Positions 18,170 to 51,998 of a stretch of DNA of 64,000 nucleotides are shown here, piece by piece. How positions within the stretch are numbered: the first letter of the stretch is position 1; each line of letters opens with the position of its first letter. The notes under the pieces are model-generated. The model was not told where the DNA came from. It ran no database searches and saw only the letters and a list, made by a program, of their open reading frames with translations. Source of the DNA: an uncultured Tateyamaria sp. (GTDB lineage: Bacteria; Pseudomonadota; Alphaproteobacteria; Rhodobacterales; Rhodobacteraceae); NCBI RefSeq assembly GCF_947503415.1, contig NZ_CANNDS010000004.1, positions 62,001 through 126,000 of the forward strand, in the 5' to 3' direction. The position numbers and the translations under genes are program-made.

Positions 18170-18709
18170 CTAACTAAGGCGGCGGCAAGTTGCCCGATAT
18201 CTTGGCTCAGAACCTAGGATTTCAACCGGGTCAGTAATTGATGCCAAAACCCACCTACTCATGTGACGAAAGCACTGCCTTGTTCTACTGGCCAATGCTC
18301 CTTCGGCACTCAAATCACCTCTAATGCACGCCAAGTTTGCCCAGTTCTCCGAAATTGCCCTATCTGAGGCGGTTGTGGATATGGTCAAGAAATAGCCATT
18401 CGGGACAAACTGTCTAACCTCAATTGGCCTTCCATCTAATAGTTCCCAGGTTTCTGAAGTGCTCGCGCTCAACTGGTTTGACAACTCGGCAGCACAATCC
18501 CCTGAAGCACATCTCATGAGATCGCATATAGGAAGACGTAGTTCTCTCGTTTGGTTGGTTGCTCCACCTGCCGCACCTTGATTTTCACTGAAAGTCGCTT
18601 CAGTTGCAACAACTTCGACTGTGGGTGTTTGAATGGTAACATCTAAGTAGATATCGCATGCCCCCACGAAAAACGTGAGGGCTGCAACGGAGTGTCGCCA
18701 ATCAGTCAT
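18170..18709 (-). CDS. Putative lipoprotein of unknown function
   Basis: 179 residues. The N-terminus MTDWRHSVAALTFFVGAC resembles a lipoprotein signal with Cys18 as the acylation site, though the lipobox (VGAC) is not ideal. The mature part is rich in Ser, Thr and Cys (several Cys pairs) and matches no family I know. Its start overlaps the end of the 490-residue gene upstream by eight bases, so the two are coupled and probably act together at the envelope. Codon use is AT-richer than the backbone. Confidence 0.55.
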   Translation of the reverse strand: MTDWRHSVAALTFFVGACDIYLDVTIQTPTVEVVATEATFSENQGAAGGATNQTRELRLPICDLMRCASGDCAAELSNQLSASTSETWELLDGRPIEVRQFVPNGYFLTISTTASDRAISENWANLACIRGDLSAEGALASRTRQCFRHMSRWVLASITDPVEILGSEPRYRATCRRLS

Positions 18710-20174
18710 TGGCCATTACTCCACGCGCTTTGAGGCTTTCGACATGCCGATCGGACATGGTATCTGCGCGCTCAAACGCTTCGATTCTGCTATCCCAGAT
18801 GTCGTCCAAGGCATCATTGATGACGGTATGATAACCAATGATGCGAATGTTGTCGGGACCATCAGAAAAAGTAAGATCATGGCCTCGGGCTTCAACCTTT
18901 TGGCGTTCTACGTGCTTATGATAGGAACCTCCTCCGCCGAAACCTATCCCAAAGACGGAAGCGGATGCAGATCCACCGGCTTTGAAGTCTTTTTCATAAT
19001 CATACTGCCATTCTTGTTCGCTCTTAAATGTGACTGACAATCCACGACAGACAACCAAATGCGTGGGGAATATCTTTAAGGTGCCGTCCTCTCCAAGCCA
19101 GCGTTCGAACAAGTTGAAGTTTTGCTTGATGAGTGAGTTCTTAAAGATGGAAGGAGTGAACCACGTGTCCGCTATGTAAGGTATGGCCATCAAGGCATCG
19201 ACGCTAACGGTCATCTCGTTGGATGCGGCAAATTCTTCCTCAATCTGTTCATGGGAAGAAACCTGTGACTTAAATTTAAATGGCCCGTATCCGACGCTTA
19301 GTGATGCGCTCCAATCCGTGGTGATGCTTTCCGACGCTTCGGAAACACTTGTGATACCGGATGAGAGTTGACCAAAATCGGCACTAGCAATTGTCTGGAT
19401 AGATAGTGCAGGTGTCATCATATGTTCATTTATGAACAGGTTGGAATCGTGTGCTGGTTTCGAAGCAAAGTAGACAACGCCAAACTTGTCGCGCTCTTCT
19501 GGATATGCAGTGTCTTCAAAGCGAGGATAGCGCATTGTTGCGGCAGGGCTAATCAGCTTCTTATACGCTTCCAATATCTCTTTGTGATCAGCATCATCGT
19601 ACTCTTGATCTCGTAGTCCTACTTGAAGGGCCAACTTGAGAAGCCGTCTTTCTCGCACTTCCTTTAGCCGAAACGATTCTGGTTGGCCCTGAACCCAATG
19701 AGTTTCCTCAGCTAAATCACCCGGATCAATCTTCTTTAGTTCAGCGTACCTTGCCCATTTTTCGCCAAGACGCTCTTGGATTTTTTCTTCCTTTTCACCT
19801 AGGTTTTCAATTTCGACCTCTAGTTCGTCGATTCGCTCCAGAATTTCCTCGTCTAACTCATTGGTTTCAACTAACGTAAGTGCCTTTGAAAGAAATGAAC
19901 GGTATTCATCTGACAATTTTGAACGAAGTTGCAATCCGCTACCAAGGCTATCACTAGTTGGTTGAGGTTCGATTGCAGCATTGAATGCACGATTGATCAT
20001 TCCTCGAGAAAACCACTCGTACTCAGTCGATACATCAAGTGGAATGGCCGAAGCTTGAATTTGATACTTGCCGTTAGGCGCTAGCTCTCCTAGCGACGAC
20101 TTAATGATTGAATAGAAGTGATCAATTGATAAGTTCCAGTTCTTTAGGACATCGACTTCTTGAATCTGTGACAT
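18702..20174 (-). CDS. Unknown 490-residue protein with coiled coil and Gly/Ser-rich beta segments
   Basis: I do not recognise the family. The ribosome site GAGGGTG precedes the ATG at 20174. Residues about 100-155 form a charged coiled coil (NELDEEILERIDELEVEIEN). Residues about 255-310 alternate hydrophobic and polar residues (TTDWSASLSVGYGPFKFK), and near 400-425 there is a small-residue run (AGGSASASVFGIGFGGGG). Such paired amphipathic and Gly/Ser-rich strands are seen in some beta-pore-forming and autotransporter-like proteins, but this is only an analogy. There is no signal peptide. It is coupled to a putative lipoprotein gene and divergent from a SARP-like regulator. Confidence 0.6.
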   Translation of the reverse strand: MSQIQEVDVLKNWNLSIDHFYSIIKSSLGELAPNGKYQIQASAIPLDVSTEYEWFSRGMINRAFNAAIEPQPTSDSLGSGLQLRSKLSDEYRSFLSKALTLVETNELDEEILERIDELEVEIENLGEKEEKIQERLGEKWARYAELKKIDPGDLAEETHWVQGQPESFRLKEVRERRLLKLALQVGLRDQEYDDADHKEILEAYKKLISPAATMRYPRFEDTAYPEERDKFGVVYFASKPAHDSNLFINEHMMTPALSIQTIASADFGQLSSGITSVSEASESITTDWSASLSVGYGPFKFKSQVSSHEQIEEEFAASNEMTVSVDALMAIPYIADTWFTPSIFKNSLIKQNFNLFERWLGEDGTLKIFPTHLVVCRGLSVTFKSEQEWQYDYEKDFKAGGSASASVFGIGFGGGGSYHKHVERQKVEARGHDLTFSDGPDNIRIIGYHTVINDALDDIWDSRIEAFERADTMSDRHVESLKARGVMAND

Positions 20175-20463
20175 GTTGCACCCTCTGATTGATTCGTTTT
20201 CGGATGGAAGTTCAAAGCTCCACCTACGCTCAGAGTGAAGGTGCCTCGTAACTTGAGAGTCTCTGGGGTGTTAACGATGCGTTAATTCGATAGCTGACTC
20301 TATATATTGTGGTTTTTTTTGGGGTAGTCATAAAATGTAGTTCAGCAAAACGTGCGATGACCCACCGAGAAGCCGATGTTGGAACAAGGGCGTTAGGACT
20401 GCGACCTTTACACACGTAGTCGCGTCGAGAATACTGCGGCTTGTATTTGATAGGGGCCCTTTG
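20175..20463. promoter_or_regulatory. Divergent AT-rich promoter region
   Basis: 289 bases between the 490-residue protein gene (minus) and the SARP-like regulator (plus). AT-rich tracts (TATATATTG near 20300, followed by a run of eight T) and no convincing gene. It should hold both promoters and any site for the adjacent DNA-binding protein. Confidence 0.45.
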
Positions 20464-22065
20464 ATGGCGGGCTATTACATAAATATCTTTGGTCTGTTTA
20501 AGATCGCTGATGAACAAGGCCATGAAGTGTTACTGCATGGCCAAAAGGAGCGAGCCTTGCTCGTTCTACTTGCTATGTCTCCTGGATTTGCGCGTTCTCG
20601 GAATTGGCTCAAAGCACATCTCTGGAGCGACAGGCAGGAGAAGCAAGCATCCTCAAGCTTGCGGCAGGCACTATGGCGGATCAGGAAGGCGTTCCCAGAG
20701 GAAAAACAACTCATTGATGCTGATGCCGACGCAATCTGGCTCAATCAAAACTATATTTTGGGGATCAACAACGAAGACAGTAACCGTCTCGAGCTTTTTG
20801 AAGGAGCTGATGTAAGAGACCAGGGTTTTGAAGAATGGCTTTCAATGGCTAGGGTCGGTGCGACTGTTCGAGATATTGCAGTTTCAGTGCCAAGATTGCC
20901 CTGTGTGGTAGTTAATCCCCCAGTCGTAAACGGTATAACCGTAACCCACGATACTAACTCAGATGATCTTATCGAAGATATCATTCATCTTCTATGTAAC
21001 GGCGGCCTAGTTGACGTATTTGACGCAAGAAATTTGAAAGATGATCAAAGCCGAAGCCTTTCGTCTCCATCGCTACGGCGAGATGCACTCATACATTGGA
21101 AATTTCAGTACAGGCATGGCTTAGTCGAAATAGGCGTGCGTGTGGTTGAATTTGGGACAAATCGCGTACTGGCGATGCTAAGGCGGACTTTTTCCGAAAT
21201 CGACCTTGCTAGCGGAAGTGCGACAAGGTTTGAAATTTTGGCCGGAGTTACCGATGCGATTGAAACTGCAGCCTTTGAAACCAGCGAGCAAATTGGCCAA
21301 CCAGAAACGATTTTCAAAGCTGTGCATCAACTCATGAGCCATTCTTTGGAGGGGCAACAATCGGCAAGGCGCTATCTAGAGGAGCTCACAAAGGTAAGAA
21401 ATCACCCTGTCGCTACCGCTTGGTGTGCGTTCTCATATGCGGTTGGGGTTGGTGAACGGTACGAGCGATTAGATAACGCGTTTTTTGAGAAGGCTCGAAG
21501 CCTTTGCAGTCTTGCAACGAATGCAGCTCCGACAAATGCTGTAGTGCATGCCATAATTGGGCATGTCTGCGGGTTTGTATTCCGGGATTTTCACGAAGCT
21601 TCTGAACACCACAACCTAGCTCGCGAATTAGCTCCTGGGCTTCCAATAATTTGGGATTTCTCAGCGATGAATGCCTTGTACACTGGCGAGTCGGAGACGG
21701 CATATAGATTTGCGCACCAAGCATCCCGCTTGGGTCGACATAGTTCGCTTCGGCCATACTACGATACTTCGGTCATGATGTGCGCAGCGGCTACTGGGCG
21801 TCATGCAGAAGCAATTGAGGTTGGTAAGAGGGTGCTGACTAAGATTCCTAAAATACTGCCTGTTATGCGCCACTTGACTGGTTCAATGGCTGCACTCGGT
21901 GACTATGATGGTTCGTTATCAATGATGAGAGAGGTTGGGAAGTATGATCCGGAGTTTTCATTGGATGCATTGAGTAATCCGACGTACCCGATCATAGCTA
22001 AGGATAGTATCGAACTAATTAGGAATGCATTCATTAGAACTGGCCGTACTTATTCGATGAATTAA
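20464..22065 (+). CDS. SARP-like regulator: winged-helix DNA-binding domain plus TPR-like region
   Basis: 533 residues. The N-terminal 95 residues fit an OmpR/SARP-type winged helix (INIFGLFKI, KERALLVLLAM, SSLRQALWRIRKAFP, then LIDADADAIWLN). The middle part (about 150-270) resembles the periplasmic-like domain seen in CadC/adenylate-cyclase-type regulators. The C-terminal 200 residues are helical repeats of TPR type (ALGDYDGSLSMMREVGKYDP). I infer a transcription factor that senses a protein or small ligand through the repeats. AGGGG lies seven bases before the ATG; an alternative TTG is one codon earlier. It is followed 16 bases later by the PAP2 gene, so likely an operon. Confidence 0.75.
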   Translation: MAGYYINIFGLFKIADEQGHEVLLHGQKERALLVLLAMSPGFARSRNWLKAHLWSDRQEKQASSSLRQALWRIRKAFPEEKQLIDADADAIWLNQNYILGINNEDSNRLELFEGADVRDQGFEEWLSMARVGATVRDIAVSVPRLPCVVVNPPVVNGITVTHDTNSDDLIEDIIHLLCNGGLVDVFDARNLKDDQSRSLSSPSLRRDALIHWKFQYRHGLVEIGVRVVEFGTNRVLAMLRRTFSEIDLASGSATRFEILAGVTDAIETAAFETSEQIGQPETIFKAVHQLMSHSLEGQQSARRYLEELTKVRNHPVATAWCAFSYAVGVGERYERLDNAFFEKARSLCSLATNAAPTNAVVHAIIGHVCGFVFRDFHEASEHHNLARELAPGLPIIWDFSAMNALYTGESETAYRFAHQASRLGRHSSLRPYYDTSVMMCAAATGRHAEAIEVGKRVLTKIPKILPVMRHLTGSMAALGDYDGSLSMMREVGKYDPEFSLDALSNPTYPIIAKDSIELIRNAFIRTGRTYSMN

Positions 22066-22081
22066 ATCAAGGACTTGTGCT

Positions 22082-23053
22082 ATGTTGCCTCCATTCGGTT
22101 TGTTTTCAATTGCGATACGACGTTTAGCGTCCCGCTCAGAACCGATGAGTGATTGGATGCCTGAGTTAAGCGAAGACGATAGGAAGCAAGCGTTTCTTGA
22201 TTGGCGGGATCAAGTAAGGAAAGATCTTTCCAATGTGATTTGCCCTTTTCTTAGAAGAAGTGGGGGAGGACAGAGGCCGACTTGGGACGGGATTCCGATA
22301 GTTGAGGCAGAGGAAATCATTAAAGCAGAACTTGACGTAATTATCCAAAACTTCCAAGGATCGGCTCCTACCATTCGGGACAAAGCCCCGGTCATTAGTT
22401 CCCCAGAATTTGGTTCAACTCAGCTTGAACAATTCTTGGTTGAAGACAAACCAAGTCAACCAGCAGCAATAAACCTAAGAGACTACGTGTCAGGGTTGTC
22501 TCAAGAACAGTTTGAGAAAACTCGCGCAGCGGTAGACGACGCTTACAGTAGCAAAAAACTTCCAGGACTATTCTGGTTCAAAAATGAGTTCATGAGGGTG
22601 CGACCTCACCAAGCTGCATTAATATTGGGTCGGGAAGATTTCATAAACTACCCGGCGCTGAGTGCCAGACATTCTTCTTTTTGTAGTGGCCACTGCCTTG
22701 AAGGAATACTCTTCAGTGCGGCAATCGAGGAATACTGGAGGTCTAGTTCAGTAAGTTATTCACCCGTTCAGCTTGAAGAGTTGGCTCAATACGCAGTCGA
22801 TTTTGGAGATAGGCGGGTTTTTGCTGGTGTCCACTATCCATCGGACAATATTGGTTCTTGGATAATTTCGCTTAGGCTCGCCAAGTATATATTCAGTGAT
22901 AGTGGCCAGACACTTGCTTTCATTAGACGTGCCATCATTGAAAAAAGTAAAGTATTTGAAGTAATCGACGTTCAATATGAAAAGTTTGAGGCGCTTGTGC
23001 CCTTACGCAACTTATTGCGAATTGAGTTGAGCATGGACGATGTAATTAGCTGA
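22082..23053 (+). CDS. PAP2-superfamily phosphatase / haloperoxidase-like protein
   Basis: 323 residues. All three motifs of the PAP2/vanadium-haloperoxidase superfamily are present: KX6RP as Lys167...Arg174-Pro175, SGH as Ser202-Gly203-His204, and RX5HX3D as Arg245...His251...Asp255 (GVHYPSD). Members are acid phosphatases, lipid phosphate phosphatases or haloperoxidases. It has no obvious membrane helices or signal peptide, so a soluble enzyme is likely, closer to the haloperoxidase or bacterial acid phosphatase side. The N-terminal 130 residues are not recognised. It is cotranscribed with the SARP-like gene and shares its low GC. Confidence 0.75.
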   Translation: MLPPFGLFSIAIRRLASRSEPMSDWMPELSEDDRKQAFLDWRDQVRKDLSNVICPFLRRSGGGQRPTWDGIPIVEAEEIIKAELDVIIQNFQGSAPTIRDKAPVISSPEFGSTQLEQFLVEDKPSQPAAINLRDYVSGLSQEQFEKTRAAVDDAYSSKKLPGLFWFKNEFMRVRPHQAALILGREDFINYPALSARHSSFCSGHCLEGILFSAAIEEYWRSSSVSYSPVQLEELAQYAVDFGDRRVFAGVHYPSDNIGSWIISLRLAKYIFSDSGQTLAFIRRAIIEKSKVFEVIDVQYEKFEALVPLRNLLRIELSMDDVIS

Positions 23054-23209
23054 CGAGCTCAAACTACTGAAAATTTTGAGCGCTGAGCTGAGCCTTCCGT
23101 ATCTCGACTTTGCTAGTCTATCTGACCTGCCCCCCAAGGCGTCTGCGGTCAGGGTTAATTCTGCCGTCTTTTTATCACAAAGGCGGGCTGGGTGCGCCTT
23201 GCAATATCA

Positions 23210-23376
23210 TCAGTCCTGCTGGGACTTCATCCCGATTTCGCTGTGTGGGCGTTCCTCATTGTAAGCTCCACTGAAAGCCTCCAATTTTTCTGGCGCATCT
23301 GCCTGCAAATTCGGGCCTTCTAACAGGTCCAGAATGTCCTGGAAGAGTTCATAATCTCTGCTCTTGGCTATTAACG
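23210..23376 (-). pseudogene. Remnant of an IS3-family transposase (OrfB C-terminus)
   Basis: Reading the minus strand, a frame of about 55 codons ends ADAPEKLEAFSGAYNEERPH, then SEIGMKSQQD and a TGA stop. The YNEERPHS block is the hallmark of the rve_3 C-terminus of IS3/IS481-type transposases. There is no start, catalytic DDE core or terminal inverted repeat around it, so it is a decayed fragment. It marks past insertion activity between the PAP2 gene and the signalling cluster. Confidence 0.6.
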
Positions 23377-23429
23377 ACGAAGGTGTCAGAGACTAGAGCA
23401 GCCTGTGTCAACTACGAATCTTTAAGATA

Positions 23430-25622
23430 TCATCTAAGACTAAGTTTCCAGAGGGAAATCTCTCCCTCAGCGCTGCGACCATGCACCTCGCCCGGAATAG
23501 AAAAAACCTGCTTGATTTCGGCGCCAGTCACTACTTGACCGGGATAAAAGATTGGGAATCCAGGCGGGTAGGGTGTGATGAAACTGCCAACAACGTACTG
23601 GTCAGTGTCATTCAATTCCTCGCTCTTCGTCGGCACGGCAAGCCGACCAGTTTTCGAGAACAACATGTCTCTCATAGCCCAGCCGCCTTCAGTTATGACA
23701 CCCTTCGGGTATTCTAGTGGTTTATGGTCCTTGCCGAGGCAAAACTGTAGATTTGGAATAGACATTCTGTCTATCTCACTTGAAACCTCATCTGGATTGG
23801 AATCTGCTACGATGAGCTTAAGTTTGCTCAGAAGGCTAGTAATTCTACTCTTCTTGAAGCCCGGCATGAACATAAACATTAGAGAGTCTTCGCCATACTT
23901 GTTAACCTGAACACGTCCGATATTCCACATTCTCGTTTTTGCTGCAGCAGAGCTGACATTAAGCTTGTGGAATATTGTCAGTTTTGTTGGATCCTTAACA
24001 AGATTGGCTTCAGTCTCGCGGGCTCTTCCATGTGGCGGTGTTGGGTCGAAATATTGTTTTACAGACCCCCATTTATTTCCAAACAAAAGCCCTTTCAGGT
24101 CGTTGATAGCTTTCACGCTATCTTGTATCAGCGTTCCTCCTTCAAGAGCCATTTGCCTTCTAGCAATGTCGAATGAGGCAACGATAGGCGCGCTTGGGCT
24201 AGTTGTTGTGCGGGCAAGGTAACTTTGCTTAAATCGCTGTGTTTCAAGTCCCGAAGCCTGATTATCTCCATCCAAAAAGTGATCACTTTCTAGAATAACC
24301 GAAGCTTGCCTCAGCGCCGTGAGTGTTTTGTGTACCGACTGAGTGACGTATACTCTAGGTTTCACATTGCCTGGAAGTTGGGCATGCGTTGCGGCAAACA
24401 TTCCAGTAAACCGAATTAACCCCGGATCAAACCGAGCGAAAGAAAACCACGCCTCATCAAAAACATACACAAATTGATCTGCCAGATTTGATAGACCAAT
24501 ACCGCGAAGAAATTGATCGATTGCTTCAACATACTCCGTGGCATTTAGGACATAGCCATCAAATGTGCAGTTGGTTAATACCAATCCTTTGATTTTTTCG
24601 ACATAGCCATCTTTCGCGGCAGTTTTGAGCAAATCAAGAACGCTACTAAGGGCAACAGGCCCGAAAACGTCGGGATCAACGGCGACCTCAGGATTGACGT
24701 AGAGGGGTATCGCGTTCTGCATTGCTGCGCTGTAGTGGTGTGATATGTGGCAGTTTCTATCAACAATTACCACATCTCCATCATCAAATAGTGCGGACCA
24801 AAGGATTGAATTCGCTCCAGTAGTTCCGTTCGTGCAAAACCGTGCCTTCCGAGCGCCGAATGCCTTCGCAAATAGGTTTTGTGACTCTACGATGCAGCCA
24901 TTGGGAGCAAGCAAGCTGTCGAGAGGCTCAAGCGTTAGCGAAGCCTCCGCAGAAAAGAGGTTTTGCCCAAATTTCTCTATGAATCCCGAGCTTGTGATGG
25001 ATCGATTTTGCCCATCCCCCACGCCGAGAGCATGAAAAATTTCTTTGTCCATGCTGGCATACTTCAGCAGACCATCCCATGTCGGAGACTGTGCATTTAT
25101 CTGGAGGTGTTCTGTTATTTTCCTCGCCAAAAGATCAATCCCACCTTGATGGTCAAGGTCGCCTTTTTCGATTGCCGTCTCGAATGCATCAAAGTCCGTT
25201 TCATTTGTCTCCAGGCTGTTGTGGGCTGTGATTAGGCAACAGAACGCATGCGGAATATATTTTTTGATTTCTCTGCACAGCGAAATTCCGTCTGGTTTTG
25301 GGCCGTCATTGGCCGACCAGTTTAGTTCAAACTTCCAGTCAACCAAAAAGATGATGCTTGAATCATAGGCTTCTGAGGCGGCGGCCGAATCGGTAGCTTC
25401 ACCAAAGATGCGCGCGCGAACTCGGTCGAGATACGACTTAAGTCCTTCATTTTGGTTTGGAAAGATCCCTTCGACGGTTGGCTGAATAACGACATCTGAG
25501 TCGCCGAGTTCCAGCGGGTTGGTGCGCCACCATAGGGAGGTCTCAAGAGAGGTCAGGATCTGACGAACGCTTGCTTCATCGTCGTCTATAGTTACTATTG
25601 TAGGCTCATACACTTTGTTCAT
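23430..25622 (-). CDS. Receiver domain fused to Orn/Lys/Arg-type PLP decarboxylase
   Basis: 730 residues. Residues 1-175 form an enlarged receiver domain with the acidic cluster Asp13-Asp15 (TIDDDEAS), phospho-acceptor Asp95 (FLVDWKF), Thr133 (LITAH) and a possible Lys153. Residues 200-560 are a fold-type I PLP enzyme of the group III decarboxylases: TNGTTGANS, VDRNCHISHHYS, Asp389 in VFDEAWFSF, and the PLP lysine Lys432 in SVHKTLTALRQAS. The C-terminal domain keeps the PYPPGFPIFYPGQ block. The expected reaction is decarboxylation of a basic amino acid to a polyamine or agmatine. The ATG at 25622 has AGGAGA five bases before it; the frame is open 44 codons more. Divergent from the kinase gene, starts 24 bases apart. 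I infer phosphorylation-controlled enzyme activity. Confidence 0.85.
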   Translation of the reverse strand: MNKVYEPTIVTIDDDEASVRQILTSLETSLWWRTNPLELGDSDVVIQPTVEGIFPNQNEGLKSYLDRVRARIFGEATDSAAASEAYDSSIIFLVDWKFELNWSANDGPKPDGISLCREIKKYIPHAFCCLITAHNSLETNETDFDAFETAIEKGDLDHQGGIDLLARKITEHLQINAQSPTWDGLLKYASMDKEIFHALGVGDGQNRSITSSGFIEKFGQNLFSAEASLTLEPLDSLLAPNGCIVESQNLFAKAFGARKARFCTNGTTGANSILWSALFDDGDVVIVDRNCHISHHYSAAMQNAIPLYVNPEVAVDPDVFGPVALSSVLDLLKTAAKDGYVEKIKGLVLTNCTFDGYVLNATEYVEAIDQFLRGIGLSNLADQFVYVFDEAWFSFARFDPGLIRFTGMFAATHAQLPGNVKPRVYVTQSVHKTLTALRQASVILESDHFLDGDNQASGLETQRFKQSYLARTTTSPSAPIVASFDIARRQMALEGGTLIQDSVKAINDLKGLLFGNKWGSVKQYFDPTPPHGRARETEANLVKDPTKLTIFHKLNVSSAAAKTRMWNIGRVQVNKYGEDSLMFMFMPGFKKSRITSLLSKLKLIVADSNPDEVSSEIDRMSIPNLQFCLGKDHKPLEYPKGVITEGGWAMRDMLFSKTGRLAVPTKSEELNDTDQYVVGSFITPYPPGFPIFYPGQVVTGAEIKQVFSIPGEVHGRSAEGEISLWKLSLR

Positions 25623-25646
25623 CAACTTCTCCTGCTGTCGGAAACC

Positions 25647-26735
25647 ATGCTTACCGCCGAAGAACAACAAATCAAGGACTTGCTTCGAATGGCACTGCCT
25701 CACGATTTCGGGCAGACCATTACGTTTCTTGATCGTCGCGCTAGGGTACTTCAAGATGCTTCCGGGCCGTCCGGGGTCTTACGGGAGTTTGAGGCGACCA
25801 TCAAATTCTCGCGCCGACCCGAGAAAATGATTGTCTTGCTTGACGCAATTGACAACGAGTTCAATCTTTTCTGGGATACAAACTATGAGGAGTTCGACCA
25901 TTTCAAGATTGACGGAGTATTCGACAAGTTGATCGCCCCCAGACTTGATGATGTAATAGACTTGGCGGAGGAGTTTTCCAGGTTGTTAGAAAGAATTGAC
26001 TATCAACGACCGAGTCGTGCTAGGCGACCTCGGGTGAGGAAAGTGATATCTCTTTGCGATGAAGCGTGCGACGACATAGAGTATTTTGGCCGACGCAGCA
26101 AGCATTACGTAAAAGGTATGATTGAGCTCCTTGAGTTCACACCTGTGGCAAATCCAGAGCATACAAACCTAAACAACTTTTTTTCTCAGCAGCGGCGATT
26201 CATGTTGGACTCGGAACGACAATCGTCTTTGGTGGTGTTGAATCACCTTCCAACGCTCAAAATTGATTATTCTCATTGCTTTTCGTTGTTCTCAAATTTG
26301 ATTAAGAATTCGTTGAAATATCGACGGGGTGAAACTTGCATGATCTTCGTCGCTGCAGAGGATCCATCCTACGACGAAGATTTAGCTGTTCGGTGGCCAA
26401 TTCCCGACTTCATGCCTTTGGGTCGAGTTCCTGATGGTATGTTTGCGATACACTTTGTTGATATGGGAATTGGGATTGATCCAAAAAAAATTAAGTCGAT
26501 ATTCAAGCCGTTCAAAAGAGGGCTGCGTCCAAACCAAGAGGCATCAACAAGGCCCAAAGTAAAGAAAGGCGGAGTTTCAAGCCGCGATGAGTTTTCTGGC
26601 ATGGGCATAGGGCTTGCGATAGTCAAACGCGTTGTTGACCTGTACGATGGCGCTGTCTATGCATCATCGCACGAGGGTGTGGGTACCTGCATCACAGTGA
26701 ATCTTCCGTTGAAGATGATGCAAGGGAGGACATGA
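25647..26735 (+). CDS. Atypical soluble histidine kinase
   Basis: 362 residues without membrane segments. The C-terminal HATPase_c domain is intact: N box with Asn221 (SLFSNLIKNSLKY), G1 box VDMGIGID (271-278), F box IFKPFKRG, G2 box GMGIGLAIVKRVV (318-330). The phospho-acceptor is less clear. His19 in LPHDFGQ resembles an H box, but the helical stretch to the second dimerisation helix (GMIELLEF, 157-164) is longer than usual, so the DHp domain carries an insertion or is degenerate. It is likely to phosphorylate the receivers encoded next to it. It is followed one base later by the receiver gene, so they form an operon. Confidence 0.8.
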   Translation: MLTAEEQQIKDLLRMALPHDFGQTITFLDRRARVLQDASGPSGVLREFEATIKFSRRPEKMIVLLDAIDNEFNLFWDTNYEEFDHFKIDGVFDKLIAPRLDDVIDLAEEFSRLLERIDYQRPSRARRPRVRKVISLCDEACDDIEYFGRRSKHYVKGMIELLEFTPVANPEHTNLNNFFSQQRRFMLDSERQSSLVVLNHLPTLKIDYSHCFSLFSNLIKNSLKYRRGETCMIFVAAEDPSYDEDLAVRWPIPDFMPLGRVPDGMFAIHFVDMGIGIDPKKIKSIFKPFKRGLRPNQEASTRPKVKKGGVSSRDEFSGMGIGLAIVKRVVDLYDGAVYASSHEGVGTCITVNLPLKMMQGRT

Positions 26736-26736
26736 C

Positions 26737-27195
26737 TTGCCAAAGAAAAAGTTGATGGTTGTCGTGTATGAAGACGATGCAGAAATGAAAGACTTGGTTG
26801 AAGAAGCTAAGGCGGCTCTTATGGAGCGCGGCAACTCCAGCCATTCGCGCGTTCAATGTATTGTTCCTCACCTGATGGTGAATCAAGAAGAGTTTGATGG
26901 TTGGCTGTCGTCTGGTGGCGTCGATGATGCGTACATAGCAGTGGTTGATTTACAGATTGATGAGGACGATTGGGAAGGTGTGAGAGCAGTCGAAGCCCTC
27001 CGGAAGTCACGCGAGTATGAAGACTTCCCGATCGTTGTTTTCTCAAAGACTTCGAATAAACACGCTAGGGAACGTGCGTACACTGCCGGCGCGACTTCTT
27101 ATGTGAAGAAACCGATCAACCGCGATCGACTAGTACAATCGCTCTCAGATATACTTGTCTATTGGGTTGATTTGCATGAGAAACGCGTTGCCTGA
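26737..27195 (+). CDS. Stand-alone response regulator receiver protein
   Basis: 152 residues, one receiver domain and no output domain. Asp13-Asp14 form the acidic pocket, Asp71 (AVVDLQID) is the phospho-acceptor, and Ser103 (VFSKTS) and Lys125-Pro126 (YVKKPI) complete the switch. The beta1-alpha1 region is longer than usual. It starts with TTG: GGGAGG stands seven bases before 26737, and the only nearby ATG (26755) would cut into the first strand. Its end overlaps the next gene by 20 bases. Candidate roles are phosphate shuttle, phosphate sink or protein-interaction switch. Confidence 0.82.
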   Translation: MPKKKLMVVVYEDDAEMKDLVEEAKAALMERGNSSHSRVQCIVPHLMVNQEEFDGWLSSGGVDDAYIAVVDLQIDEDDWEGVRAVEALRKSREYEDFPIVVFSKTSNKHARERAYTAGATSYVKKPINRDRLVQSLSDILVYWVDLHEKRVA

Positions 27196-28363
27196 GGATG
27201 ATTTTCTTCTACTTCATGTAGACGACGATGCTGCGGATCTTCTGGAGTTCTCTGAGTTTCTCGAGTCAACAGGTAGTAGTAAATATCAGCTTATTAGCGA
27301 AGCTCGCCCAACCTTAGCGCTCGCCCGCTTGGCAGAGAAGAACAATATCAGCTTATGCATTGTCGATCTAGAGCTCGACGACCAAGATGCTTCTGATTTC
27401 AACGATACTGTTTGGGATGGTTTTGCGTTTGTTACCCTAGGCAAAATACTGAGCCCGAGTACAAATTTTATCGTATTGTCGCATCGTGTTGGGCCCTTCA
27501 CCAAAAAGCGCGCAGCCGAGGTTGGATGTTTTGGCATTCTTCAAAAAAGGAAGTTGACAGATACAGCGGCCGTTCAAGTGATAGAGCAATTGGAGTACGC
27601 TTGCCTATATAGCAAAAATTTCTTGCGATTTCAGAGTGAGGCACGCCTTAACTTTTCCAACGCGATTGCTCATACCCTTCGTCGAGAGTTGCGCAAGTGG
27701 AGAAATGATTTGAAGATGATCAAGGAGGAGAGTGGCGCACCTTTCTCCGTTGTTCAAGTCGGCACGATTGACAAAGCAATTCGCGAGAATGATTATCTTG
27801 AGGCGAAGCTGGAGCGTGTGCTTCAGTTTTATACTCGAGATCAAATCACGCCAGAAGATGTAGTGATTTCGAACTTTCTTGAAGAATTCTTAGGACGCAT
27901 CAATACGGTGCAGAATTTGCGCCCTTCGATTGACGTAGAACTCGAGATTGGCAGCTTTGACCGGCAGCTATTGTCGATTGCATTGGAGAACCTCTTGGAG
28001 AATGCAAATAAGGCAATAAGCCATCTTGGTGAGCAAGGATGGGTTGAGTTTAATGCCACTCTTGGCGTTTTCAGATCTGGCGTGGAGTATTTGAAGGTAG
28101 AAGTCTTGGACAATGGGGTTGGACTAAGTCCGGGCGAAGAGAAAATGGCCCTTAAGCCGAATTATTCGGGGGAAAACTTGGCTGATAGAGGTGTTAGTTT
28201 TGGGATTGGCTGTGCGGAAGCTGCAAAAATAGCGAGGCTTCACTGGAATCGCGATATGTCGGGTAGTCTGCGTCTTGACAGAGGTCCTGAAGGAATTGGA
28301 TGCCGCGCTACTTTTATTGTTCCCTTGAGAGCAGATAGAGAGTTGGCCCCCTTGGTATCTTGA
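27176..28363 (+). CDS. Receiver-histidine kinase hybrid
   Basis: 395 residues. The N-terminal receiver has Asp17-Asp19, phospho-acceptor Asp64 (CIVDLELDD), Ser102 (VLSHR) and Lys124 (LQKRK). A DHp-like helix follows with His166 (SNAIAHTLRRELRKW). The HATPase_c domain has Asn272 to Asn277 (ENLLENANKAI), Asp312-Gly316 (LDNGVGLS) and GVSFGIGCAEAAKIA. There are no membrane or PAS segments, so its input is probably phosphotransfer or protein contact. Start: the ATG at 27176 begins the receiver; a TTG at 27155 is possible. It is the third gene of the kinase operon. Together with the divergent receiver-decarboxylase it makes three receivers and two kinases in 5 kb. Confidence 0.82.
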   Translation: MRNALPEDDFLLLHVDDDAADLLEFSEFLESTGSSKYQLISEARPTLALARLAEKNNISLCIVDLELDDQDASDFNDTVWDGFAFVTLGKILSPSTNFIVLSHRVGPFTKKRAAEVGCFGILQKRKLTDTAAVQVIEQLEYACLYSKNFLRFQSEARLNFSNAIAHTLRRELRKWRNDLKMIKEESGAPFSVVQVGTIDKAIRENDYLEAKLERVLQFYTRDQITPEDVVISNFLEEFLGRINTVQNLRPSIDVELEIGSFDRQLLSIALENLLENANKAISHLGEQGWVEFNATLGVFRSGVEYLKVEVLDNGVGLSPGEEKMALKPNYSGENLADRGVSFGIGCAEAAKIARLHWNRDMSGSLRLDRGPEGIGCRATFIVPLRADRELAPLVS

Positions 28364-28659
28364 CCAAAGTCCGGAAAAGTCAACTCACATGGTTTTATTT
28401 GATGTAAGGGCCATCTGACATTTATCTTAGATCAAATTGCGGAAATCTCGATTAAGCGTTTGTCGTTTTTGTTTGAGTGCACTGTTTTGGGGTTGGCATG
28501 ATTGTATGATATTTGATGCGGGTCTTTCTTAACCCCTTCCGCTTGGTGCGCTAATGGAGGATCGGACCGACTCCCTAGTAACCTGAGGCAGGTAGGGGGT
28601 GCCTATGTGCGATCCATGTGCAATGCGATCCGCCAAGAGACTTACGATTTCACAGATAC
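28364..28659. other. Intergenic junction between island and ICE trb region
   Basis: 296 bases between convergent genes. Composition changes from AT-rich (to about 28500) to GC-rich. No tRNA, integrase or certain terminator was seen. The imperfect inverted words around 28573-28600 (CCCTAGTAACCT / AGGTAGGGG) could form a weak hairpin. If the ICE ends here an attR core should lie in this interval; I cannot identify one. Confidence 0.4.
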
Positions 28660-28932
28660 TTAGCCCTGATCGGAATCCAGTGGCTTCGGTGGGTCTGGCT
28701 TCTTGCGGTTGGCCCTCGATCCCGCCTTGCGCGCTGCAGCGAACCCGCGGTCCGTGGCCATGAAGCGGTCGAGCATGGGGGCGACGAGGCGGGCGGGCTC
28801 AAGATCCTGTCCGGTCTGTTGGCCGAGGACAGCCGCGTAGTCGCAAAGGTCACGGTGTACATCAGCGGGAAGTTCGACGGTCAGCTTGACCGGCTTGTCG
28901 TCATGGATCGGGCCAAGCTTCAGTTTCGTCAT
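28660..28932 (-). CDS. DUF2274 family protein
   Basis: 90 residues starting MTKLKLGPI, with KPVKLTVELPADVHRDLCDY, which resembles a ribbon-helix-helix-like strand-helix pattern, and a basic Lys/Arg-rich tail. DUF2274 genes are regularly found just after trbI in Tn4371-type and rhizobial ICEs. Its ATG overlaps the trbI stop by four bases. The role is unknown; a DNA-binding or transfer-accessory function is plausible. Confidence 0.85.
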   Translation of the reverse strand: MTKLKLGPIHDDKPVKLTVELPADVHRDLCDYAAVLGQQTGQDLEPARLVAPMLDRFMATDRGFAAARKAGSRANRKKPDPPKPLDSDQG

Positions 28933-30128
28933 CGGACTTCTCCCAAGGGCTCGAGGATCAGGTCGCGGGTGACCATGACGCGGACCGGGAAGCCCGGGCG
29001 TATGGTCAGTGTCGGCGGGACGGCGAGCTGCTGGCGGACGATCTCGTCCCCGGTCCGTCCGATCGTGTCCTGCGCGGCCTCGCGGATGGCGCGGGCGACA
29101 TCGTCTTCGGTTTCTGCGCCACTTTCCAGGCCGAGGTTCAGGATCGTGGCGAGGCCAGCAGCAAGGAAGACGCGACCCCAATGATAGTTGACCCGGTCCT
29201 GCAGGCCGGACGCGCCTGTTCCGTCAGTACCGGGCGCGCGCTCCAGCACAATGGAGCGACCATCCGGAAGGATTAGGCGGGTCCAGACCAGAAGCAGACG
29301 GCTTTGCCCGGAGGCGATGCGGCTGTCGTATTCTCCCAGAAGCCGAGCGCCTTGCGGGATCAGCAAGTACCGCCCTGAGGGGCTATCAAAGACATTCGAC
29401 GTCACCTGGGCCGAGATCTGGCCCGGTAGATCGGAGTGCAGGCCGGTGATCAGGGCGGCCGGGATCACCGTTCCGGCCTGCAGGATGTAGGGGCTGGGCG
29501 GTGCCGTGATGCGTTGTGCACTCACGGTTTCCGTGTTTCCGGGTCGGGTGAGGAACGCCTCTCGGTTTGAGACCGGATCGCTTGCCGTCGGGCTGCCCAA
29601 TGTGGAGGGGAAGAGCACGCCGGTCGCGGGGGGCGTCGATGTGGGCTGTGCTCCGCCGCGTTGCACGGTTTGCGCCTCGGCGAAAAGGGCGCTCAGCCTG
29701 GCGGCGTCGAGTTCCTGAAGGCGGCGTTGTTCCTCGGGATCGACTGTGGGGGCCAAAGGACCGGAAAGGGGCGGTGCCGGGACCGGCTGGCCGCGATCTT
29801 GCGCCCCAAGGATGGCGCGGCCCAGCTCACCGGGCAAGGGTGGGCCGAGACGCGGGACATCTGCGTAATCCCGAGGCAGTGTGGACAGCCCTTCAGCCGC
29901 CTGAATGCGTTCGGTGGAAAAGAGCTCGGTCTGGGTGCCCTCCTGCCGGTTGTTCTGCAGGGCCACGATCAGGATTGCGCCCAGACCCAGACCGCCGATT
30001 GCGGTGGCAAGGGCGATGGCCCGGCGGGACAGGCGCATGACACGGGGCGGATCGGGCCTGAGGCGGAGTTCCTGGGCGATGTCTTGCTCGGTCCGTGGTG
30101 GCTCCGGCATATCAGGGGTTTGTGTCAT
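28929..30128 (-). CDS. trbI: Conjugal transfer protein TrbI (VirB10-like)
   Basis: 399 residues. A short cytoplasmic N-terminus is followed by one membrane helix (about 38-58), a Pro-rich periplasmic stretch, and the VirB10/TrbI C-terminal barrel-like domain (ILQAGTVIPAALITGLHSDL, LLIPQGARLLGEYDS). It bridges inner and outer membrane in the type IV secretion channel. The start at 30128 overlaps the trbG stop (ATGA); the frame is open far upstream but that part is antisense-like. Penultimate gene of the trb operon. Confidence 0.93.
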   Translation of the reverse strand: MTQTPDMPEPPRTEQDIAQELRLRPDPPRVMRLSRRAIALATAIGGLGLGAILIVALQNNRQEGTQTELFSTERIQAAEGLSTLPRDYADVPRLGPPLPGELGRAILGAQDRGQPVPAPPLSGPLAPTVDPEEQRRLQELDAARLSALFAEAQTVQRGGAQPTSTPPATGVLFPSTLGSPTASDPVSNREAFLTRPGNTETVSAQRITAPPSPYILQAGTVIPAALITGLHSDLPGQISAQVTSNVFDSPSGRYLLIPQGARLLGEYDSRIASGQSRLLLVWTRLILPDGRSIVLERAPGTDGTGASGLQDRVNYHWGRVFLAAGLATILNLGLESGAETEDDVARAIREAAQDTIGRTGDEIVRQQLAVPPTLTIRPGFPVRVMVTRDLILEPLGEVR

Positions 30129-31105
30129 CGCTCCGCCTCCGGCTGGGGCGCGCGCGGCGGGCGCTGATCGCCATCCGTCCGTACGATCCGCACGACCTGC
30201 TGTTGTCTTTCGCCGAGACGCAATTCCGCGGCTCCGAAGAGCCTGTCCACGATCAGCACATTGCCGCGCACGCGGGTGTTGACGATCTGGCTGCGCCCAT
30301 CCGCGCCGATCACGAAGAGCGGGGGCATTTCGCCCTGGGCGATACCGGGTGGAAAGACGACATAGACACGCCGTCCATCGTCGAAGACCGAGACCGGCCG
30401 CCAGGGTGGGGCGTCGCCCTGCAAGCCATAGCGGTAGTGCCGTTCGGCCTCGTGCGGGATCGCCGGGCGGCGAATTGTTGGGGTGCGGGGCGTGGTTCGC
30501 ACCTCTGGATAGGCCCATGCAACGCTGGGCATCCAAGTCTCTTCGTCGGCGTGCAACTCGATGTGATAGGTGCGCCGGTTGGTGTTGACGACGAGATTGG
30601 TGGAGATGTCGGGGCGGGTGGGTTTCACGAGGATATGGACGCGCTCGGTGCGACCCGCACCGCTGGTGGTATCACCGATGATCCAGCGCGCGGTGTCGCC
30701 CGCCGCGATCGGGCCGGGGCCGGTCAGGCGTTCGCCGGGTTCGAGCGCGATATTCGTGATCTGGCCGGGTGCTGCATAGATCTGGTAGAGCGCGCCTTCG
30801 CTCCACGGAAAAACCTGCATGGCGTTGTAATAGCCCTGCTGGCGGGGTTCGACCCGGGCGGCGGCATTTGCGGCGATGATGCGCGCCTCGGGCGTATCCG
30901 CTTCCGGATCGCCGCCGCGGGAGGGCGTCCAGGCGGGGGGCGTGTGAACCGGGCGGGGCGGCCCCTCGGCCGGGGGTGGTGCCGGCGGCGGAGCGAGTGC
31001 CGGGATGTGATCATCGTAGGCGATTTCGGGCGGGCGTTGCCCCGTGCAGGCGGTCAGCGCCGTGGCCGCGATGAGAAGAACGGGGATGGGGCGAAGTCGG
31101 GTCAT
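30125..31105 (-). CDS. trbG: Conjugal transfer protein TrbG (VirB9-like)
   Basis: 326 residues with a lipoprotein-like signal (MTRLRPIPVLLIAATALTAC), a proline-rich segment after it, and the VirB9/CagX beta domain in the C-terminal half (PSVAWAYPEVR region, then HYRYGLQGDAPPWRPVSVFDD). It is an outer-membrane-associated part of the mating channel. It overlaps trbF and trbI by four bases each. Confidence 0.92.
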   Translation of the reverse strand: MTRLRPIPVLLIAATALTACTGQRPPEIAYDDHIPALAPPPAPPPAEGPPRPVHTPPAWTPSRGGDPEADTPEARIIAANAAARVEPRQQGYYNAMQVFPWSEGALYQIYAAPGQITNIALEPGERLTGPGPIAAGDTARWIIGDTTSGAGRTERVHILVKPTRPDISTNLVVNTNRRTYHIELHADEETWMPSVAWAYPEVRTTPRTPTIRRPAIPHEAERHYRYGLQGDAPPWRPVSVFDDGRRVYVVFPPGIAQGEMPPLFVIGADGRSQIVNTRVRGNVLIVDRLFGAAELRLGERQQQVVRIVRTDGDQRPPRAPQPEAER

Positions 31106-31785
31106 TGGGCATTCTCCCTCGACCAGTTGATGGCATGGACATAGACGCCGAGGGGGTTGGCCCGCAGGCGCTCCGCATCGCGCGGCGGTTGGATCACGAC
31201 GGTCAGGATGGCGGTCCAGCGATCGGTGCTGGCGAGTTGACCGTTTTCGTATCGCCGCTCGATCCAGGCGACGCGGAAGCTCGTATCCGAGGCGCGGATG
31301 ACGCTCGAGACTTCGACGGAGACCTGCGTGTCGCCGACCTGCGCGAAGGGATCGTTCACCCGGGCATGGTCATTCAGCGCGACAGCGCCGCGGTCCGTGG
31401 CGAAATCGTAGGCACGAAGCCAGTTCTGGCGCAGCACGATCGGATCGGCAGGGACCTGCCGGACATGCTCAACGAAGCGGGCGAGATGCCACGCGATCTG
31501 CGGATCGGTCGGGCGATACTCGGCCAGCGCCGGGGCGACGGCCTGTGCCGCACCAAGATTGTCGACCTCGACCACGTAGGGGACGACGCTGCTGCGTGTC
31601 GATTGCCAGGCGAGCGCCGCGCTGAGCCCGGCGGACAGGGCGAGGCATCCGAGCGCCATAAGGCGCCAGTTGCGGGCCTGGACGCGGGCCGAGCCGATGC
31701 GCTCGTCCCAGACCTGGGCGGCCTTCTGGTAGGGGGTGACAGGCTCGGGCGTGGTGCCATAGCGGACACTGGGGCGTCGGAACAT
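31102..31785 (-). CDS. trbF: Conjugal transfer protein TrbF (VirB8-like)
   Basis: 227 residues, one membrane helix at about 40-60 (LMALGCLALSAGLSAALAW) and a periplasmic VirB8-type domain (WHLARFVEHVRQVPADPIVLRQ is split by the usual helices). It is an assembly factor of the type IV channel. The start at 31785 follows from coupling to trbL through TGATG; the longer frame upstream is inside trbL. Confidence 0.9.
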   Translation of the reverse strand: MFRRPSVRYGTTPEPVTPYQKAAQVWDERIGSARVQARNWRLMALGCLALSAGLSAALAWQSTRSSVVPYVVEVDNLGAAQAVAPALAEYRPTDPQIAWHLARFVEHVRQVPADPIVLRQNWLRAYDFATDRGAVALNDHARVNDPFAQVGDTQVSVEVSSVIRASDTSFRVAWIERRYENGQLASTDRWTAILTVVIQPPRDAERLRANPLGVYVHAINWSRENAQ

Positions 31786-33071
31786 CAGGAGGACCTTTCG
31801 GAGAGGCTGACGACCGTGCCGCCGCCGCCATGGTCTCCGGAGCGGATGACATGGGCGGCGGTCGAGAGGCCGTGTTGAAGGGATTGCTGGCGCTTCATCC
31901 GGCGCGCCCAATCGGGTGGGCCGTCATTGGCCGGGGCGGGCAGGGCGCCACCCGCAATGCGCCCGCCGGTGGCGGCATAGGCTGCGCGGGCGCCGGACTG
32001 CGCGCCGTCCGAGATCGCGCGCCGGAGCGGGCTGAACGCGGCGACGGCACCGGTCTTGCCGACAGCGGCCACGCCACCGACGGACTTGCCCAACGCTGTG
32101 CTGCGGGACGCGGCACCAAGTTGGTAAGCGGTCGCGGTTCCGCTGCCAACCGCACTGGCACCACGCAAGGCCGCGCCACCGGTGCCAAGTGCCATCCGGG
32201 TCCCGGCGACACCGGCGACCGCGGCCCCGCCCACGGCGATACCGGTGCCGACAGCTGCGCCTGCGCCAAGCTGTGGCCCGCCCGAGACAATGCCATTGGC
32301 GATGCCGGGGCCGAAGATACCGAGTGCGAGAAGCGCCAGCGCGCCGAGGACCACGGACATCGCGTCGTTGATTGTGGGTTCACCCGCAAACCCGGCGGTG
32401 AACTCGCTGAAGATGGTCGACCCGATGCCGACGATCACGGCCAGGACCAGAACCTTGACGCCGGAGGAAATGACGAGGCCCAGCACGCGTTCGGCCATGA
32501 ACGCGGTCTTGTTGAAGAGGCCGAAGGGCACGAGGATGAAACCCGCCAGCGTGGCCAATTTGAATTCGATCAGGGTGACGAAGAGCTGGATCGCGAGGAT
32601 GAAGAACGAAAGCAGGACCACCAGCCAGGCGAAGAACAGGATCCCGATCTGGATGAAGTTCTCGAAGACGGCGACGAACCCGGAGAGTTCGGCGATGGAG
32701 GCAAGGATCGGCTGGCCGGCCTCGAGCCCCACCTGCGCGATGCGGCCGGGCTGAAGCAGTTCACTAGCGGAGATCGTGCCGCCGGTGGCGACCAGGCCAA
32801 GGCCCGCGAAACTGTCGAAAACGATCCGGGCCAGCGTGTTCCAGTTGCCGATGATATAGGCGAAGACCCCGACGAAGAGGGTCTTTTTCACCAGCCGGGC
32901 GATGATGTCGTCATCCGCGCCCCAGGCCCAGAACAGGGCGGCCAGCGTGATGTCGATGACGATCAGCGTGGTGGCGAGAAAGGCGACGTCGCCGCCGAGA
33001 AGGCCGAAGCCGGAATCGATGTAGGAGGCGAAAACCTCGAGAAACCGGTCGATGACACTGACGCCGCCCAT
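31785..33071 (-). CDS. trbL: Conjugal transfer protein TrbL (VirB6-like)
   Basis: 428 residues. The N-terminal 270 residues are hydrophobic with six or seven membrane helices, and the C-terminus is a Gly/Ala-rich, low-complexity tail, typical of TrbL. It is a polytopic inner-membrane part of the mating channel. The ribosome site is GGAGTGAGG before ATG 33071. It sits between the small TrbK-like gene and trbF, in the usual order. Confidence 0.92.
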   Translation of the reverse strand: MGGVSVIDRFLEVFASYIDSGFGLLGGDVAFLATTLIVIDITLAALFWAWGADDDIIARLVKKTLFVGVFAYIIGNWNTLARIVFDSFAGLGLVATGGTISASELLQPGRIAQVGLEAGQPILASIAELSGFVAVFENFIQIGILFFAWLVVLLSFFILAIQLFVTLIEFKLATLAGFILVPFGLFNKTAFMAERVLGLVISSGVKVLVLAVIVGIGSTIFSEFTAGFAGEPTINDAMSVVLGALALLALGIFGPGIANGIVSGGPQLGAGAAVGTGIAVGGAAVAGVAGTRMALGTGGAALRGASAVGSGTATAYQLGAASRSTALGKSVGGVAAVGKTGAVAAFSPLRRAISDGAQSGARAAYAATGGRIAGGALPAPANDGPPDWARRMKRQQSLQHGLSTAAHVIRSGDHGGGGTVVSLSERSS

Positions 33072-33075
33072 CGCC

Positions 33076-33345
33076 TCACTCCGTTCCGGCCGGCTCTGGC
33101 GCCAGATCGAAGAAGCGCTGCCGGGCCGCCTCCCAGGCGGCGCGGCATTCGGTGTCGGCTGCGTAGTCTTCGGGCGTCAGGTCACGGCAACGCGCGAGGA
33201 TGCCGCGCAAGGCGTCATCCCTGACCACATTCCCGGTGTCGGTGGGCAGGACCGTGCGTGTCAGTTCGACGGCGGCGGCGAGGGCGGCAAGGCCGCCGAT
33301 ACCGAAGGCGACAAGGCGCAGAGTTCGCGGGGTGTCGAGGGCCAT
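33076..33345 (-). CDS. TrbK-like small protein (alternative entry-exclusion type)
   Basis: 89 residues: an N-terminal membrane helix (LRLVAFGIGGLAALAAAVEL) and a periplasmic part with two Cys (ILARCRDLTPEDYAADTECR). Its place between trbJ and trbL and this Cys pattern fit the TrbK-alt family named for rhizobial and alphaproteobacterial ICEs. Entry exclusion is inferred from position and size. GGGGAG precedes the ATG at 33345. Confidence 0.78.
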   Translation of the reverse strand: MALDTPRTLRLVAFGIGGLAALAAAVELTRTVLPTDTGNVVRDDALRGILARCRDLTPEDYAADTECRAAWEAARQRFFDLAPEPAGTE

Positions 33346-33349
33346 ACGC

Positions 33350-34132
33350 TTACTCCCCGAACAGCCGTACTGTGCCGGGGGAGTAGCCGCCGCCGTAATC
33401 GAGGAACCGCGCGAGGTTCTCGCGGCCCTGCGCCTCGGCGGAGGCGATGCGGGCGGCTTCCAGCGCTTCGGCACGGTTCTGCGCGGCGATGGCTGCCGTC
33501 AGATCGGCGATCTGTGTCGATTGCAATGCGAGCAGTTGGTTGCCAGCCTGCGCGACCTGCAGGGCCCCAACGGCTCCTTGGCTTTCGCGGATGAGCGCTT
33601 CCATGTGAGTTCGCGCGCCGTCGATATTGCCCACGACCCCGGCCTGCACGCGCAACGCGTCTTCGAAGCCCGCGACGGAGGTCTCCCACCGCTCGCGCGC
33701 GCCTGCTATCATCGCGTCGAAATCGCCCTGCGCTGCGGCAGCACCGTAGTCCTGCGTGAAGGCCTGTTCGATAGTGGCCACGTCGAAGGCGAGGCTCTGG
33801 GCATCGGCCAAGAGGCGCTGCGTCTCGCCGATGGCGTCCTGCAGCTGCGCCAGTGACGAATGCGGCAGGTTCGCGAGGTTCAGCGCATCGTTCATCAGCA
33901 TTTGCGCCTGGTTCTGGATCTGCGCGATCTGGTTGTTGATCTGCTCCAGCGCGCGGGCAGCCGAGAGGATGTTTTCGGCGTGGTTCCGCGGATCGTAGAC
34001 GATCCGGCCACCACCGCCGAAGAAGAAGGCCTGGGCCGGTGTCGATAGAACCGGTGTTAGGACGAGGGCGCTGGCCATCAATGCGGCGGCGAGTTTGCGG
34101 GGCCGGGCAGGGCGCTCAGGATTGCGGGTCAT
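33350..34132 (-). CDS. trbJ: Conjugal transfer protein TrbJ (VirB5-like)
   Basis: 260 residues with a signal peptide (hydrophobic core LAAALMASALVLTPVL, cleavage after PAQA) and a long alpha-helical mature part (NNQIAQIQNQAQMLMNDALN). It is a VirB5-like pilus-tip or surface component. The start at 34132 overlaps the end of trbE by 17 bases. Confidence 0.9.
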   Translation of the reverse strand: MTRNPERPARPRKLAAALMASALVLTPVLSTPAQAFFFGGGGRIVYDPRNHAENILSAARALEQINNQIAQIQNQAQMLMNDALNLANLPHSSLAQLQDAIGETQRLLADAQSLAFDVATIEQAFTQDYGAAAAQGDFDAMIAGARERWETSVAGFEDALRVQAGVVGNIDGARTHMEALIRESQGAVGALQVAQAGNQLLALQSTQIADLTAAIAAQNRAEALEAARIASAEAQGRENLARFLDYGGGYSPGTVRLFGE

Positions 34133-36596: not shown

Positions 36597-36600
36597 CGGC

Positions 36601-41676: not shown

Positions 41677-41677
41677 A

Positions 41678-49976: not shown

Positions 49977-49993
49977 GTTGATGTCCTTTCTGC

Positions 49994-51751: not shown

Positions 51752-51998
51752 GGTCGTGCACGCTCGCAGAACAAGATGCCGCACAAATAATATCTTAAAA
51801 TCAGCTCTCTAGGTGAAGTCCTGAGGCACGCAGTTTGGATGTGCGGCGCAAACCCTCGCAGAAAAACAACAGCTTGAGGTCCGCTTGCGGCACCTCTTTT
51901 ATCTTGCGCTCTTTCTGTTGAGACCCTGTGCGTCGGCTCTCTCCGGCACATTCCTGCGACCGGGTATTCCAGATCTCGCCATGGTGCGATTTCGCGGA

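Follow-up and report, generated by a model that had tools for sequence, protein, structure and literature searches.

The receiver origin of the wing domain in basic amino acid decarboxylases has already been described (PMC8503589), and P2CS (2009) names lysine, arginine, and ornithine decarboxylases as probable enzymes in two-component proteins (PMC2716373). Two-component systems with an ATP nucleosidase are known from defense as Detocs (PMC9966839 and PMC10952713). Literature searches for a kinase-linked decarboxylase response regulator found none, and the excerpts of PMC12632262 and PMC7159879 hold nothing on a combination of receiver, decarboxylase, and kinase. Here, we analyzed a 64,000-nucleotide stretch from an uncultured Tateyamaria sp. 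(contig NZ_CANNDS010000004.1, positions 62,001 to 126,000; hereafter the window, to which all coordinates refer), which carries a receiver-decarboxylase fusion next to three further genes that encode the histidine kinase HK1, a lone receiver, and a hybrid of receiver and histidine kinase. We consider it likely, with a probability of roughly 70%, that the four genes form a two-component system in which a pyridoxal phosphate (PLP)–dependent basic amino acid decarboxylase is the direct output.

A first-pass annotation of this DNA had described the fusion as divergent from the other three genes, and the open reading frames (ORFs) and their order are as it described; its observation was thus confirmed, while its interpretation is supported only in part. 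The fusion (730 amino acids; 23430 to 25622, minus strand) is defined by the ORF list, Pfam, alignment, a fold model, and its start-site sequence. Its start is most likely the ATG at 25622, which has AGGAG just 5′ on the minus strand and at which the homologues begin, making the listed TTG at 25754 superfluous. HK1 (25647 to 26735, plus strand) leaves a gap of 24 bp between the divergent start codons (25623 to 25646), or 66 bp if it begins at the later ATG at 25689. The lone receiver (152 amino acids; 26737 to 27195, plus strand) is overlapped by the hybrid kinase (27188 to 28363, plus strand), whose TTG start at 27188 is backed by homologues, the listed ORF running from 27155. Because these three genes abut or overlap, they suggest a single plus-strand operon.

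We found that the decarboxylase part of the fusion matches Pfam OKR_DC_1 with 194 bits. Among the matches listed (120 of 456 decarboxylase homologues, comprising 23 family members, 3 longer relatives, and 94 others), the catalytic residues K432 (codon 24327 to 24329, minus strand) and D389 were present in all 120. The proposed Orn/Lys/Arg-type core with an intact PLP lysine therefore holds, and the conservation of both residues argues for turnover. The enlarged receiver domain occupies residues 1 to 176 (25095 to 25622, minus strand) and, by alignment and profile, carries D13, D14, D95, T132, and K153. Here, the first-pass annotation had placed D13 to D15 and D95 correctly, but its Thr133 is Thr132, and it did not list the lysine. 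The complete set (D13, D14, D95, Thr/Ser132, and K153) is kept in 22 of the 23 aligned family members, our own included, across ~28 to 83% identity, with Asp95 (codon 25338 to 25340, minus strand) as the putative phospho-acceptor. This family alignment represents 23 of the first 24 homologues, P0022 being omitted for its long extension. Two of the three longer relatives have the complete set as well, whereas none of the 94 other listed homologues has it, nor even Asp95 (0 of 94). These are mostly proteins of ~900 amino acids, and the only two of them tested, P0047 and P0105, match Rv2531c over nearly the full length (832 and 732 bits). The complete set is likewise found in none of the five Escherichia coli K-12 enzymes, as judged by eye from the alignment. 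Thus, the earlier statement that wing domains usually lack the phospho-acceptor stands for the complete set but not for CadA and LdcC (L127 and L130), whose wings, again by eye, have lost the acidic pair and the Lys but retain an Asp where the acceptor would lie, within the motif IFDW.

To place the receiver structurally, a profile was built from 13 of the 23 family receiver parts. Against solved structures, it matched 30 chains at E ≤ 1, 29 of which carry names of receivers or response regulators (best E = 0.002), including chains that we take to be PleD and NtrX. The fold model of the fusion aligns with LdcI over residues 6 to 727 [root-mean-square deviation (rmsd) 8.4] and with Rv2531c over residues 4 to 730 (rmsd 3.4), and in this model, the receiver occupies the wing position of the known winged decarboxylases, to which the fusion belongs by fold and residues. 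The identity of the receiver rests on its residues together with the weak profile matches to response-regulator structures and the fold model. The fusion combines an intact phospho-receiver, as judged from its residues, with an apparently active PLP decarboxylase.

For HK1, Pfam gives a HATPase domain (60 bits), and its model (predicted local distance difference test score of 83.7) shows a histidine-kinase fold, with ZraS as the best match (E = 3.6e-10). An N-terminal H-box, PHDFG with His19, lies on a long helix in this model and is invariant in 10 of 10 sequences; a helical insert (approximately residues 44 to 125) follows behind the H-box helix. By eye, HK1 is soluble and without a membrane sensor, and the Pfam scan gave no match to TPR models in it. 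The HK1 family is sharply bounded, its ten homologues, our own included, reaching E ≤ 2.4e-55 and the next kinase 1.7e-9. The lone receiver matches Response_reg (38 bits, Pfam) and keeps D13, D71, and K125 in the alignment. The hybrid kinase has a HATPase match of 34 bits and a receiver match below threshold (23 versus 30 bits); D23 to D25, D71, S109, K131, and H173 are invariant in all five sequences, our own among them.

We used contig size as a proxy for linkage: The protein search reports the longest contig of each protein, and equal sizes were taken to mean a shared contig. An equal-sized contig with a decarboxylase homologue was found for 7 of the 10 HK1 homologues (our own included) as compared to 0 of 40 other kinase matches. 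Conversely, six of the nine close decarboxylase homologues (P0002 to P0010) have an HK1 partner on an equal-sized contig. Because of this difference from the other kinases, the pairing of HK1 with the decarboxylase looks conserved, and a chance neighborhood was judged unlikely. The distances among HK1 and decarboxylase sequences are also correlated (r = 0.98, seven pairs, 3 of 5,040 permutations). Two of the contig sizes common to HK1 and the decarboxylase recur for the hybrid kinase, which shares a third with HK1 alone.

Because the decarboxylase is joined to an intact receiver and encoded beside its own kinase, it is probably switched by phosphorylation, a kind of control that appears closed to its well-known relatives. 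In the mechanism that we propose, HK1 would read an internal signal, perhaps through its helical insert, and autophosphorylate on His19, as conservation and fold suggest. The phosphate may then pass to Asp95 of the fusion, either directly or via the other two proteins; the lone receiver and hybrid kinase could thus serve as relay, branch, or sink. The wing stabilizes the decamer of arginine decarboxylase (PMC8983666), and Rv2531c alternates between a tetramer and a dimer, its oligomeric state changing with PLP (PMC12910592); thus, assembly is a natural control point. By analogy with this role of the wing elsewhere, the phosphorylated receiver might alter dimer-to-ring assembly and so turn decarboxylation on or off. 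Given its intact catalytic residues, the enzyme would strip CO2 from lysine, arginine, or ornithine, yielding the amine and consuming one proton.

Several results weigh against this interpretation. Phosphotransfer and phospho-control of activity are predictions from sequence. Most matches of the receiver profile in the Protein Data Bank (PDB) lie above E = 0.01, Pfam Response_reg matches only 2 of the 23 family members and these below threshold (best E = 0.037), and when the profile is compared with the lone receiver and further receivers, the probability reaches only 60%. One family member, the truncated P0017, has Gly at position 95 and has thus lost the acceptor. The pairing is an indirect reading from equal contig sizes. 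No matching HK1 was found for P0005, P0006, and P0010 (three of the nine close homologues), and three HK1 homologues (on contigs of 34,669, 5,829, and 1,723 bp) have no matching decarboxylase. With near-copies removed, the distance correlation is weak (r = 0.64, five divergent pairs, 6 of 120 permutations). Among the distant homologues P0011 to P0024, HK1 linkage was found in 0 of 14, although the search is a weak one for sequences this remote, and the hybrid kinase is linked in only two of the nine close homologues. As for homologues that would have lost both the acceptor and the linked kinases, the acceptor is missing in 1 of 23, and HK1 linkage is divided between close and distant homologues as given above.

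We next considered where the four genes reside. They are cargo at the left end of an integrative conjugative element of ~51.8 kb, which is integrated at dusA and holds two cargo blocks. The left end is marked by an attL-like copy of the dusA 5′ end (17689 to 17717, plus strand), whose best 24-mer, at 17,694, agrees in 21 of 24 positions with the start of dusA and is the sole site with at least 19 of 24 between 15,000 and 69,400; a search for exact repeats found no attachment site, and the mismatch-tolerant search gave this one. The right end, at ~69,460, falls beyond the window: The sequence at ~69,458 starts dusA (Pfam Dus, 284 bits), with a tyrosine integrase (79 bits) adjoining. The size of the element follows from these two positions. 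In four genomes of the same genus, 1.4 to 7.6 kb of other sequence separates dusA from the TRAP-transporter genes (which in the window end near 17,560), and this TRAP flank is present in 19 of 20 genus genomes, our own included. Because the module is cargo of such an element, an accessory stress or defense function would be likelier than one in core metabolism.

The locus lies in a low-GC cargo block (18001 to 28400; ~47% as compared to ~60% on both sides, measured in 2-kb steps, so that its edges are approximate). It is followed, all on the minus strand, by conjugative transfer genes (28660 to 38176), with DUF2274 and a T2SSE-type ATPase identified by Pfam and the intervening genes read as trb/virB from their translations; by the second cargo, in which one gene of GmrSD type and one of the DUF4917 family lie among those for type I restriction-modification (38357 to 47411); and by a TraG-type coupling protein (T4SS-DNA_transf) and a DUF3363 protein with a relaxase match below threshold (47985 to 51784). 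The low-GC block also encodes a 490–amino acid protein (18702 to 20174, minus strand) without a Pfam match above the cutoff, which by eye has a coiled coil and then a Ser/Gly-rich part resembling a β-sheet or pore-forming domain, as well as a regulator with winged-helix and TPR matches below threshold, followed by a PAP2-type phosphatase (20461 to 23053, plus strand). Farther to the right, a 514–amino acid protein (56295 to 57839, minus strand) matches phrog_10674, of unknown function, over its full length (5.6e-194) and acetyltransferase-type families more weakly; its neighbors are an XRE-ASCH and an AAA protein. In a PADLOC analysis of 22 proteins of the element, the 25 of 193 families listed include PDC-M11A, PDC-S21, and mads.

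The distribution of the decarboxylase family is sporadic. A scan of genome contigs confirmed 165 relatives, and the best 80 of the 165 all show ≤32% identity. In overlapping genome sets, the close family was found in our own genome only, namely in 1 of 394 genomes of the taxonomic family (with 43 others matched distantly at E ≤ 1e-40), 1 of 385 of the class (11 others distant, E ≤ 1e-60), 1 of 398 of the phylum (3 others distant), and 1 of 20 of the genus (absent from the 19 others, with 2 distant matches). HK1 was found in 0 of 394 genomes of the family set, which evidently leaves out our own genome and hence provides no independent negative. Two of the phylum matches (L134, 8964 to 10949, and L136, 8858 to 10924) are decarboxylases of ~660 to 690 amino acids whose receivers look partly degenerate by eye, with an Asp but neither the Thr nor the Lys retained in L134; this class may be an intermediate on the way from intact to lost receivers. 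An origin as a phage gene was rejected, as viral contigs hold no confirmed relative of the decarboxylase (0 of 30 pattern matches) or of HK1 (0 of 13) and the eight matches in the phage collection are all distant. A plasmid origin was rejected as well: The 5-kb locus is unmatched in the plasmid collection, where the decarboxylase matches (381 records) and HK1 matches (15 records) all stay below 80% coverage.

In a midpoint-rooted tree of the core domain (50 rows, including 19 of the 94 other homologues, with long branches flagged), the 23 family members form one clade (100/100) with P0025 (99/93), while P0022 and P0027 lie beside the ~900–amino acid class (92/84). Intact receivers thus occur in the 23-member clade and P0025 and again in P0022 and P0027, although P0022 lacks the Lys in the alignment. 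That receiver phosphorylation was ancestral and later lost is, because of the long branches and the midpoint rooting, a suggestion only. One could imagine that the four genes make up a mobile circuit of Detocs-like kind, serving immunity or stress, in which a histidine kinase switches a decarboxylase as its effector and, at the same time, that the family survives from an original phospho-regulated winged state lost in the Rv2531c-like and E. coli–type lineages; we regard this combined scenario as unlikely.

Among the other explanations, an anti-phage role fares best, although we hold it to be tentative and on the doubtful side. As a special case of the two-component reading with a stated role, it proposes that the kinase senses infection and the phospho-receiver activates the decarboxylase, so that the cell is harmed or arrested by depletion of basic amino acids or by a shift in amines or pH, with the lone receiver draining stray phosphate. 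The Detocs-like gene layout (kinase, lone receiver, and receiver-effector), the sporadic distribution, and the presence of type I restriction, GmrSD, and PADLOC candidate families in the same element are all in its favor; the restriction genes are suggestive as defense context, yet they are common cargo and 10 kb distant. Moreover, the effector is a metabolic decarboxylase, and we know of no precedent for a decarboxylase as a killing effector. HK1 has no match to TPR models, and PADLOC gave no match for the four genes, with the presence of Detocs models in that version unchecked.

Rather less probable is an ordinary winged decarboxylase of acid or polyamine metabolism, in which the receiver residues serve folding or oligomer contacts and the kinases act elsewhere. 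It would agree with the role of the wing in assembly of the known enzymes (PMC8983666) and with the single Asp likewise retained by CadA and LdcC. However, the complete set is kept at ~28 to 83% identity and is absent from the other listed relatives, and the apparent conservation of the HK1 linkage also speaks against it. No transporter domain was found in the nine ORFs scanned around the fusion (18.2 to 29.2 kb), and with no antiporter adjoining, an acid-resistance cassette was rejected. Least probable of all, the fusion would act within the relay as a sink for phosphate or as a scaffold, and its PLP part would be one that senses amino acid or PLP and feeds back on the kinases, an idea favored by the two extra receivers and two kinases, which exceed the need of one output, and by the PLP-responsive oligomeric state of Rv2531c (PMC12910592), but opposed by the invariant catalytic Lys and Asp.

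Compared with described systems, the two-component decarboxylase proposed here is closest to the winged decarboxylases (LdcI/CadA, LdcC, AdiA, SpeF, and SpeC), with which it shares the receiver-like N terminus, the PLP core, the C-terminal domain, and a fold match over nearly the whole chain. It differs in its complete receiver set and in its surroundings, since antiporter genes adjoin or lie close to cadA, speF, and adiA in E. coli K-12 but were not found among the nine ORFs scanned around the fusion gene; to our knowledge, no partner kinase is known for the E. coli enzymes. The Rv2531c-like decarboxylases differ by their N-terminal extension and degenerate receiver. Detocs reportedly consists of a TPR-bearing kinase (DtcA), a lone receiver (DtcB), and a receiver-PNP protein (DtcC). 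Our locus resembles it in having a kinase, a lone receiver (26737 to 27195), and a receiver fused to an enzyme effector, so that the likeness to Detocs drawn in the first-pass annotation is one of layout only. In contrast, the effector here is OKR_DC_1, with no PNP domain among the Pfam matches, HK1 with its helical insert matched no TPR model, and a fourth gene, the hybrid kinase, is present. Because the effector differs, we did not assign the locus to Detocs. The element itself agrees with the dusA-integrated genomic islands already described (PMC4482086) in its integrase gene beside dusA and its att-like copy of the dusA 5′ end, while being a conjugative element with decarboxylase-kinase cargo.

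Response regulators with enzymatic output are exemplified by CheB and PleD, and the fusion is alike in its intact receiver, catalytic output domain, and kinase. If our interpretation is correct, an unusual enzyme joins the outputs of two-component systems, and amine production could be switched without transcription; should the system prove protective against phage, phosphorelay defense would gain a further kind of effector. Within the literature searches made, a decarboxylase clade that combines complete receiver chemistry with a dedicated kinase appears to be new. Because this clade keeps the full receiver chemistry together with its own kinase, it opens the origin of the wing to direct testing.

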